Below are positions 12,128-13,798 of a stretch of 18,369 nt of DNA, piece after piece. Under the pieces are notes generated by a model. That model did not search any database. It was not told the DNA's origin and saw nothing but the letters and a program-made list of their open reading frames with translations. The translations under genes were made by a program, and so were the position numbers. How positions within the stretch are numbered: the first letter of the stretch is position 1; each line of letters begins with the position of its first letter. Origin of the DNA: an uncultured Aliarcobacter sp. (lineage in GTDB: Bacteria > Campylobacterota > Campylobacteria > Campylobacterales > Arcobacteraceae); the NCBI GenBank assembly GCA_947629065.1, contig CANRCH010000016.1, positions 1 through 18,369 of the forward strand, in the 5' to 3' direction.

Positions 12128-12868
12128 GTGAATATAATAAGTATTAAAAATCTTTCATATAAATATGAAAATACAAAAGCTTTAGAAAATATAAATTTAA
12201 ATATAAAAAATGATGATTTCTTAGCTATTATTGGTCCAAATGGTGGTGGAAAATCAACACTTCTAAAGCTAATTCTAGGAGTTTTAAAACTTCAAAAAGG
12301 AACTTTAGAAAATAGTCTTAAAAACTACGAGATGGGATATGTCCCACAAAATACAAACTTAAATATGGATTTCCCAATTACAGCTTTAGAAGTTGTTTTA
12401 ATGGGGCATAAAATTAGCCATAAAAAACTTTTTGGATATAGCAAAGAGGATATATCTTGTGCAATTAATTCACTAAAACAAGTAGGAATGGAAGATTTTG
12501 CAGATAAAAAAATAGGCGATTTAAGTGGAGGGCAAAGGCAAAGAGTGTTTATAGCACGAGCTTTATGTACAAATCCAAAGGTGCTTTTTTTAGATGAACC
12601 AACAGCTAGTATTGATGTAAAAGGTCAGCAAGAGATTTATAAACTATTAAAAGATTTAAGCAAATTTATTGCAATTGTTGTTGTAAGCCACGATTTATCA
12701 GTACTTTTAAACTATGCAAAAAGTGTAGCCCATGTAAATAGAACTTTGGTATATCATGAACTTGATGATGTTATAAAAAATGTAGATATTGAAAATGGTC
12801 ATTTGTGTGAAGTTGAACTTTTAACAGCACTTGGAAAAACGCAAATTTGCTGTAATCATGAACATTAG
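12128..12868 (+). CDS. Zinc/manganese-type ABC transporter ATPase (ZnuC-like)
   Basis: Cytoplasmic ATPase of a metal-uptake ABC transporter, 246 residues. Walker A GPNGGGKST is at 36-44, the Q-loop Gln at 74 (YVPQNTN), the signature LSGGQ at 132-136, Walker B VLFLDEP at 152-158 and the switch His at 188 (VVSHD). The PITALEVVLMGH stretch is typical of the ZnuC/MntB/SitB family. The C-terminus ends in CCNHEH, a compact Cys/His cluster fitting a metal-related role. GTG 12128 is chosen as start because AAAAGGA lies six bases upstream; a TTG at 12107 would put that site inside the gene. The partner permease follows after a 123-base hairpin-rich gap. No substrate-binding protein gene is in the window. 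Zinc is the best guess, manganese or iron possible. Confidence 0.88.
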   Translation: MNIISIKNLSYKYENTKALENINLNIKNDDFLAIIGPNGGGKSTLLKLILGVLKLQKGTLENSLKNYEMGYVPQNTNLNMDFPITALEVVLMGHKISHKKLFGYSKEDISCAINSLKQVGMEDFADKKIGDLSGGQRQRVFIARALCTNPKVLFLDEPTASIDVKGQQEIYKLLKDLSKFIAIVVVSHDLSVLLNYAKSVAHVNRTLVYHELDDVIKNVDIENGHLCEVELLTALGKTQICCNHEH

Positions 12869-12872
12869 ATAA

Positions 12873-12890
12873 AAGACAACTCGTTGTCTT
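12873..12890 (+). other. Hairpin 1 in the ATPase-permease gap
   Basis: AAGACAAC (12873-12880) and GTTGTCTT (12883-12890) are perfect inverted repeats separated by TC. As RNA this is a seven-pair stem with a CUCG tetraloop, starting five bases after the ATPase stop codon. No long U-run follows, so it is not an obvious terminator. Confidence 0.5.
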
Positions 12891-12903
12891 CTTTAGGATT
12901 TTG

Positions 12904-12940
12904 CTACTTTTAAATGAACTTGTTCATTGCTAAAAAGTAG
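12904..12940 (+). other. Hairpin 2 in the ATPase-permease gap
   Basis: Long two-part stem: CTACTTTT (12904-12911) pairs with AAAAGTAG (12933-12940). Inside it AATGAAC (12913-12919) pairs with GTTCATT (12922-12928), leaving a small asymmetric internal loop. Fifteen pairs in all. The element also contains a nine-codon micro-frame (ATG 12914 to TAG 12940) with no well-placed ribosome-binding site. Confidence 0.5.
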
Positions 12941-12957
12941 TCATTAAACAAACGGTC

Positions 12958-12984
12958 CCTTAAAAAATGGGACATTTTTTAAGG
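12958..12984 (+). promoter_or_regulatory. Hairpin 3, sequestering the permease ribosome-binding site
   Basis: CCTTAAAAAATG (12958-12969) and CATTTTTTAAGG (12973-12984) form a perfect 12-pair stem with a three-base loop. The 3' arm contains AAGG of the AAGGAAG ribosome-binding site (12981-12987) for the GTG at 12992. If folded, it would block permease translation, a layout typical of translational control. Confidence 0.6.
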
Positions 12985-12991
12985 AAGCTTA

Positions 12992-13798
12992 GTGGAAATT
13001 TTACAATATGATTTTATACAAAATGCCATTATTGCAGGAGTTTTAATCTCAATTGCAGCTGGAGTTATCGGAACTTTAGTTGTAGTAAATAAGATTACTT
13101 TTTTAACTGGTGGAATTGCACATAGTGCTTATGGTGGAATTGGAATGGCTATTTATTTGGGAATTCCAGTACTTTTTGGAGCTACGGTTTTTTCTATAAT
13201 TACAGCAATTTTAATTGCAATTATAACTTTAAAAAACAAAAGCAGAATAGATGCAATTATAGGTATGATGTGGGCAAGTGGAATGGCTATAGGAATAGTT
13301 TTAATAGATTTAAGCCCTGGATATAATGTAGATTTAATGAGCTATTTATTTGGAAGCATAATTGCTGTTTCAAGTGCTGATCTGCTTTTTTTATTACTAC
13401 TTGATATTTTTATTATTTTAATTGTATCAATATTTTATAAAGAACTTCTAGCTGTATCTTATGATAGTGAGTTTGCAGGACTTAGAGGTATAAATGTAAA
13501 GTTTTTTTATACTTTGATTTTAATACTATCAGCACTTTGTGTAGTTGCAGCAATTAAGGCTGTTGGGCTTATTTTAGTAATTGCACTTCTTACAATTCCT
13601 ACATATTTAGCTGAAAATTTTGCTTCAAGATTATCAACAATGATGATTATTAGTTCAATTTTAGCTACAATATTCACAATTTTAGGACTAGCACTATCAT
13701 ATTATTATGATATAAGTTCAGGTGCTAGTATAATTATAGTTGCAGTTTTAGCTTTATCACTAGTTAAACTTGCGAAAATTGCAAAATTAAAAAGTTAA
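12992..13798 (+). CDS. Zinc/manganese-type ABC transporter permease (ZnuB-like)
   Basis: Polytopic inner-membrane permease of the ABC-3 metal family, 268 residues and about eight helices. Family marks are GGIAHSAYGGIG near 40-51 (compare the ISHAVLPG region), the central coupling segment DSEFAGLRGINVK, KAVGLILVIALLTIPTYLA, and the C-terminal SSGASIIIV (compare SGPTIVL). It works with the upstream ATPase. The start is GTG 12992, seven bases after AAGGA, and this ribosome-binding site lies in the 3' arm of a strong hairpin. The family is clear; the metal is not, although the Cys/His tail of the partner ATPase favours zinc. A periplasmic binding protein must be encoded elsewhere or borrowed. Confidence 0.9.
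   Translation: MEILQYDFIQNAIIAGVLISIAAGVIGTLVVVNKITFLTGGIAHSAYGGIGMAIYLGIPVLFGATVFSIITAILIAIITLKNKSRIDAIIGMMWASGMAIGIVLIDLSPGYNVDLMSYLFGSIIAVSSADLLFLLLLDIFIILIVSIFYKELLAVSYDSEFAGLRGINVKFFYTLILILSALCVVAAIKAVGLILVIALLTIPTYLAENFASRLSTMMIISSILATIFTILGLALSYYYDISSGASIIIVAVLALSLVKLAKIAKLKS

Follow-up and report, generated by a model that had tools for sequence, protein, structure and literature searches.

What do three tandem hairpins do between the two genes of a metal transporter? The question arises in the window, by which we mean the whole 18,369-nt stretch of DNA from an uncultured Aliarcobacter sp. that was analysed, where the genes of an ABC ATPase and its partner permease are separated by a gap of 123 bases that houses all three stems. 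A sequence-only reading had placed these stems in 12869..12991, the last of them holding the AAGG of the permease ribosome-binding site in its 3′ arm, and had offered a metal- or protein-responsive translational switch as one interpretation and a cluster of small repeats as another. Positions and pair counts stand for all three stems, and the AAGG indeed lies in the 3′ arm of stem 3 as part of the Shine–Dalgarno (SD) sequence; a second helix open to the third stem, here called fold B, was absent from that reading, which gave the fold A stem alone. The features are, in order:

12128..12868, + strand: ABC ATPase partner (AztA/ZnuC-like); open reading frame (ORF) with an uncertain start codon and a longer TTG frame from 12107; NCBIfam matches below curated cut-offs
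12871..12985, + strand: whole element (P1, CUUUAG joint, P2, linker and the predicted bistable P3 with the SD); covariance-model match 12871-12984
12873..12890, + strand: P1 hairpin, 12873-12879 paired with 12884-12890; 7 pairs, loop CUCG
12891..12896, + strand: CUUUAG joint; among the most conserved unpaired bases in alignments A1-A3
12904..12940, + strand: P2 hairpin; 15 pairs in all, with a joint that is unequal on the 3′ side
12904-12911/12933-12940, + strand: P2 outer helix, CUACUUUU/AAAAGUAG; 8 pairs
12913-12919/12922-12928, + strand: P2 inner helix, AAUGAAC/GUUCAUU; 7 pairs
12955..12973, + strand: P3 fold B (predicted), GUCCC 12955-12959 with GGGAC 12969-12973; SD left free
12958..12984, + strand: P3 fold A (predicted), 12958-12969 with 12973-12984, CCUUAAAAAAUG with CAUUUUUUAAGG; perfect 12 pairs, loop GGA; buries the SD
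12981..12985, + strand: Shine–Dalgarno AAGGA; the AAGG lies within the 3′ arm of stem 3
12992..13798, + strand: ABC permease, zinc/manganese type (AztB/SloB/ZnuB-like); ORF with GTG start; NCBIfam matches below curated cut-offs

Taken as a single sequence, the gap folds only slightly better than expected (z −2.03; in 7 of 200 shuffles the fold is equally good or better); such energy alone would be insufficient, and the stems are proven by comparative evidence. The gap is one copy of a dispersed element of ~115 nt and not a znu-specific device. DNA searches revealed further copies in the window's own genome and in other genomes of the genus, many of them at unrelated genes, which bears out the repeat-family alternative of the earlier reading. 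A covariance model (R1), built from 13 copies with P1 and P2 paired and P3 entered as sequence only, matched all 31 of 31 genus genomes at an E-value of 0.1 or better, with 1-14 matches each; the single match in G014 is weak (E 0.0092), and in the genome of the window there are three, one each ahead of the permease gene, thrC and sufC. R1 matched 43 of 61 genomes and 16 of 20 genera in a family sample, with up to 28 copies per genome, and at E 0.001 it matched 10 of 149 genomes in an order sample, nine of Arcobacteraceae and one (G140) of another family; because only some of the first-look candidates were scored, these counts are minimum values. An exact 22-base pattern of the element occurs in 14 stretches of genome contigs, all from Arcobacter or Aliarcobacter. 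Tandem arrays comprise three copies at G071:C1:1061399-1061739 and two at G077:C1:42764-42989. Many copies per genome and variable presence at orthologous sites (see below) are what is expected of a small interspersed repeat.

No Rfam 15 family reached its gathering threshold over the element in the window stretch, in the 13 loci, or in sets of 5 loci and 7 viral loci: the window stretch gave four matches far below gathering, the set of 5 loci gave sub-threshold matches and rRNA only, and the sole gathering-score match among the 13 loci, 5′ ureB sRNA (RF02514), lies away from the element in L153. This match (L153:2234-2523(+)) is antisense within ureC, ~150 nt from an element copy before ureC. 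Searched by blastn at E 0.001, collections of plasmid and phage records yielded nothing that matched the window copy. In variant copies at L023, L060, L075 and L242 P1 and P2 are separated by an additional hairpin (CUCUCGAAGAGAG-like), and the element is therefore modular; at L153:849-968(-) and L235:1501-1613(-) a further nested hairpin interrupts P3 between the arms of fold B.

The pairing of P1 and P2 is maintained across copies by compensatory change. In alignment A3 (97 matches, 90 distinct rows), which was fitted to the P1–P2 structure and thereby favours it, 96.1% of P1 and P2 cells form standard pairs versus 69.2% after shuffling, and the covariation score is 0.680 versus 0.180 when shuffled and 0.07-0.16 for slid structures. 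Double changes are found in 20 of the 22 pairs: at all 7 pairs of P1, where 98.9% of cells are paired, at 7 of 7 inner and at 6 of 8 outer pairs of P2. Each of the 14 P1 and inner-P2 pairs occurs as at least three Watson–Crick types, and 7 of them as all four. An arm-swap test of P1 on unaligned sequence supports the covariation in A3 despite its structure-fitted alignment: over 70 distinct arm pairs the Watson–Crick fraction is 0.886 for own arms, which were picked as the best register, a choice that favours own pairing, and on average 0.426 for swapped arms, with 0 of 1000 swaps as high. Copies before the same gene were compared all-against-all within 16 author-chosen groups from A3, one of which was left with 3 rows, L061 not being in A3; here 201 of 1162 comparisons of P1/P2 pairs differ, 134 by compensatory double changes, 28 by one-sided changes that still pair and 39 by broken pairs, whereby the events are not independent and same-gene copies in different species may partly be separate gains. 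The rate of change is similar in paired (0.153) and unpaired (0.149) columns; the stems are thus free to vary provided that pairing is kept.

P3 is, by energy model and arm-swap comparison, bistable: the predicted fold A buries the AAGG, and a competing GGUCCC/GGGAC(C) fold B removes the CC partner from the SD and leaves the AAGG free. In the window copy the two folds have 12958-12959, 12969 and 12973 in common. Of 169 copies, 145 could be parsed for P3 with fold A and 24 could not; the eight pairs of fold A after CC/GG have an own-arm fraction of 0.909 versus 0.647 for swapped arms (maximum 0.716 of 1000). A perfect fold B helix of at least five pairs is present in 89 of 117 distinct segments and lacking in 28, whereas 200 swaps, treated with the same optimization as the own segments, gave a mean of 42 and a maximum of 55. 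Fold B is also kept by compensation in the variants GGUUACC/GGUAACC, GGUUUCC/GGAAACC and AGUCCC/GGGACU. At 37 °C, in an energy model that ignores tertiary contacts and proteins, fold A averages −9.8 kcal/mol over 143 copies and the best SD-open fold −8.9 kcal/mol, with 86% of these copies within 4 kcal/mol of balance between A and B. The balance is closer than controls give: over the 117 distinct segments A minus B is −0.86 kcal/mol, compared with −5.41 kcal/mol when the upstream five bases and the loop are shuffled and −2.69 kcal/mol when the upstream five bases are taken from another copy. Two mutually exclusive conserved helices, one of them over the SD, are what is expected of an SD-sequestering translational switch. 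Overall, P1, P2 and both folds of P3 are conserved and covary across copies, and the stems first proposed from the window alone are borne out.

Several more specific readings of the hairpins were considered. Fold A minus fold B shifts from −2.3 kcal/mol at 10 °C to −0.4 kcal/mol at 45 °C, which is the right direction for a thermometer but a small change, and this reading was rejected; so was a CsrA-type GGA loop, which by eye is missing in some copies, e.g. those before gatC. Integron attC sites, transposon ends and boxA-like antitermination were likewise among the readings considered. By eye, the CUUU beside P1 could pair with the AAGG as a third state. The sequence-only reading had also pointed to a nine-codon micro-frame in the middle stem. 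The frame exists (12914-12940, MNLFIAKK*, in P2 of the window copy); it is not generally conserved, and it looks incidental and was rejected as a leader peptide because only 23 of 133 parsed copies carry any ATG frame of at least six codons inside P2. Six copies judged by eye to lack P3 nevertheless stand before a gene (L076, L179, L210, L062, L111 and L166).

Where the element sits relative to genes was assessed in a pool of 167 copies, namely the 169 distinct matches in fetched loci (82 and 89 sources) after removal of two in L159, a locus from outside the family; more copies appear in the searches than entered this pool. In 156 of the 167 the start codon of a same-strand ORF of at least 50 codons lies within 32 nt of the element end, and most copies at other loci, too, end in AAGG(A) ahead of a start codon. 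Three of the remaining 11 are upstream members of tandem arrays, and by eye several others have a start in the blind range of the script or an interrupted P3. Within the family the copies thus lack the varied orientation and position relative to genes of an interspersed repeat. An upstream same-strand ORF ends within 150 nt in 146 of the 167, at −10 to +19 nt from the element 5′ end in 87 of these, so most copies lie between cistrons. Among 28 downstream proteins chosen for variety, 22 scored above the curated NCBIfam cut-offs (thrC, sufC, gatC, hisA, cysK, guaA, leuA, trpB, thrB, purD, rpsB, lepA, hemE, mnmA, ispH, nifD, ureC, urtA, hypB, thiD, urtE and dnaK), four matched below cut-off (P-II, metE, DHFR-like and ATP-adenylyltransferase-like proteins) and two had no NCBIfam match at E 1e-10. 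No common pathway or ligand-naming theme was seen among the 28, nor do the downstream genes share the pathway or transporter expected behind a metabolite riboswitch. Behind the copy at L262:1200-1315(-) lies no long ORF but a short frame, MMIQVIGIKT, together with another SD-like stretch, which may be a leader peptide or a degenerate junction.

The same gene can carry the element in one species and lack it in a relative. Among 30 genus znuB loci, one of which (L030 of G019) is a more distant relative with 62% identity, a full insert is found in the window (L001) and in L023, and L015 holds a remnant of stem 3; in the other 27 the two genes overlap or stand no more than 21 nt apart, as measured to the aligned start. 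A structured insert between ZnuC/ZnuB-type genes is therefore as odd as the earlier reading had held. A full copy (L112) also precedes this permease gene in G047, a genome from a different genus of Arcobacteraceae. Before thrC, four full copies and one degenerate copy are found among 29 readable loci (30 fetched), and before gatC five copies among 26 readable loci (28 fetched). In the filled gatC locus of G008 and the empty one of G009 the first 40 GatC residues are identical and AAAGGAAAAATTTATG is shared at the downstream junction. A quick ZnuC–ZnuB tree of 30 rows, with the distant G019 row and an oddly long G000 branch and with genomes of unreadable state left out, requires a minimum of 3 (znuB), 4 (thrC) and 4 (gatC) changes, which we read as gain or loss of the element. 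Inspected by eye, the gatC, thrC and znuB junctions show AAGG-like bases at both ends of some copies and no constant target duplication. At znuB, P1 of L112 and L023 resembles by eye the native SD context of empty relatives, and a target-derived origin of the P1 5′ arm was considered; the resemblance is not clear at gatC and thrC. Predicted SD accessibility is 0.04-0.47 in four filled thrC loci versus a mean of 0.72 in 24 empty ones, and 0.18-0.51 in four filled gatC loci versus a mean of 0.68 in 16 empty ones; at znuB (filled 0.25 and 0.70, remnant 0.89; 25 empty, mean 0.49) there is no consistent fall.

The P1–P2 core reaches beyond the family. A pattern of CUUUAG and the P2 5′ arm matched 34 of 397 genomes of the phylum: 23 of the 43 from Arcobacteraceae and 11 of the 354 from other families. 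Reversed as a control, the pattern matched none of the rows listed. Inspection covered the 11 outside genomes except G259, G271 and G359, and the matches in two of them (L350, L352) were dismissed as chance, there being no P2 partner. The pattern recurs 8 times in G127 and 16 times in G140 (both of family f10), and loci from G127, G140, G348, G349 and G290 yielded 18 distinct cores with intact P2, 17 of them with perfect P1. The CUUUAG joint is present in these cores, and no P3 was seen in any of the 18; a script placed one near an SD and start codon and 17 not. In viral contigs two patterns matched 6 and 32 stretches with 29 distinct cores of intact P2. Twelve of these precede an SD and start codon, five of the twelve with a P3-like hairpin, and 17 do not; several other pattern stretches were discarded as chance matches in coding sequence. 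Four of 8 proteins downstream of viral cores matched PHROGs, as head closure twice, neck/tail completion and portal, and of the two head-closure contigs one has P3 and one does not. With 17 of 18 chromosomal and 17 of 29 viral cores located away from any SD and start codon by the script, a core by itself shows no fixed link to genes. The P1–P2 core may be the older part and P3 an addition of Arcobacteraceae.

How are these properties best explained? We consider it somewhat probable that what lies in the gap is a copy of a dispersed leader RNA that acts in cis in Arcobacteraceae and gates downstream translation. The P1-CUUUAG-P2 part would act as a platform and the bistable third hairpin would supply the SD of the gene behind it. 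During transcription fold B would form first, because both of its arms are made before the SD, leaving the AAGG open; fold A would then capture the AAGG and shut translation. In this manner the downstream cistron would be translated to a limited or gated extent compared with its upstream neighbour, and P1–P2 would bias the choice between A and B via a bound factor or via the ribosome that ends at an upstream stop a few bases before P1. Since the element is gained or lost as a unit with its own ribosome-binding site, its gain would be tolerated. Against this reading count the mixed SD accessibility at znuB, the copies in which P3 is unparsed or lacking, the segments with no perfect fold B helix, the cores away from genes, the broken pairs and the similar change rates of paired and unpaired columns at the same gene, and the want of a theme among downstream genes. 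Position, orientation and compensation indicate selection on the RNA within the mRNA; the existence of two P3 folds over the SD suggests a translational gate, and dispersal together with polymorphism an element that moves or is exchanged. We take RNA-level selection and mobility both to be true. A further-reaching form of the idea, which we hold only tentatively, is a portable translational switch: a self-contained leader RNA, related to cores in viral contigs and in other families of the order, that is gained at the ribosome-binding sites of unrelated genes. With its own SD in a bistable hairpin, it would place many genes per genome under one common signal, e.g. temperature, an RNA-binding protein shared by the copies, or the state of the ribosome or of upstream translation.

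The weightiest rival is a selfish small interspersed repeat, similar to BOX, REP or MITE elements, that jumps into SD sites and spares the host gene by bringing its own SD, the hairpins serving the jump and not gene control. Up to 28 copies per genome, tandem arrays, presence and absence between related species, the broad and unrelated set of genes, and the P1–P2 core away from genes in other families all speak for it. We nonetheless regard it as rather unlikely: an enzyme that recognizes DNA hairpins can hardly account for at least three Watson–Crick types at each P1 and inner-P2 pair plus two covarying, mutually exclusive P3 folds, and the junctions at gatC, thrC and znuB show, by eye, no constant target duplication. 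Less probable still is an mRNA processing or stability element, in which P1 and P2 would protect or expose a new 5′ end of the downstream cistron, as an RNase III or endonuclease site, for unequal expression, with P3 secondary. It would suit the location of most copies between an upstream stop codon and a start, the regular 15-pair helix of P2 and the fact that P1–P2 is the part that occurs beyond the family and exists without P3, but it leaves the conservation of both P3 folds around the SD unexplained.

As for the switch of the sequence-only reading, the anatomy agrees with translational switching at the ribosome-binding site of the permease, whereas a metal-responsive device is unsupported. 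A metal- or metabolite-specific riboswitch for a zinc/manganese transporter might be read from the position before a metal permease and from the riboswitch-like layout of a platform and an expression switch over the SD; the same element before many unrelated genes, together with its absence from 27 of 30 genus znuB loci, largely refutes this reading, which we consider very improbable and reject as metal-specific. That the hairpins arose by chance in an AT-rich gap and have neither history nor function would be compatible with the single-sequence z-score of only −2.03 and is refuted by homologous copies and covariation.

Translational riboswitches generally combine a platform with mutually exclusive hairpins over the SD. 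The present element has the same layout and differs from them in having no single downstream pathway, few conserved unpaired bases and presence or absence at orthologous genes. Helicobacter pylori and the present host belong to the same phylum. The AapA3 toxin mRNA of H. pylori likewise has short metastable hairpins around the SD, proposed to be transient during transcription; it is a toxin mRNA with an antisense RNA, the abstract mentions no dispersed family or P1–P2 platform, and the early fold of the present element would open, not close, the SD (PMC6733600). Among the nearest known systems are the pneumococcal BOX, RUP and SPRITE small interspersed repeats, for which a parasitic origin is favoured by the authors; the present element, in contrast to what is described there, lies mostly on the sense strand directly before a start codon, holds the SD inside a putative bistable hairpin and has strongly covarying stems (PMC3049150). 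The TIGR03647 riboswitch candidate also has hairpins around the ribosome-binding site, one encompassing it, and a conserved CUUU between hairpins that might pair with that site; by its description it is set apart in always preceding one transporter gene, for a symporter small subunit, whereas the present element precedes unrelated genes (PMC6429828). The same study analysed Arcobacter sp. L and names a small Arcobacter motif, HRC-4, shown in its supplements only; its outline and main-text passages do not describe the element (PMC6429828). None of five group terms occurs in the main text of PMC8632094. Literature searches aimed at the element, together with the main-text passages covered, gave no description of it, and earlier notice is possible.

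A small interspersed repeat is often regarded as a parasite and a translational switch as bound to a single pathway; the present element bears marks of both: its presence at the same gene is polymorphic in related species, yet its stems and two predicted SD folds are kept by compensatory change. If it is active, a single control carried in the leader would be common to as many as a few dozen genes per genome, among them genes of amino-acid and nucleotide synthesis, nitrogen fixation, urease and translation factors, and the trigger of that control can now be sought. For annotators, the element provides an RNA family with strong covariation that is not in Rfam 15.

Some further observations concern the cores outside the family. 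Many cores of G140 and G127 (L159, L353-L366) lie inside longer composite intergenic repeats (GGGGTACCCC, AAGTGGGAAGGGG and others). In L351 (G348) a P1-CUUUAG-P2 core is antisense to rRNA, between the 23S and 5S matches; its flanking bases are shared by L367-L370 (G348), and L371 (G349) has similar ones. L348 (G225) contains a further core-like hairpin in which the 3′ arm of P2, AAAAGGAG, doubles as the SD, with an ATG 8 nt downstream; this hairpin is possibly a simpler form of the element.
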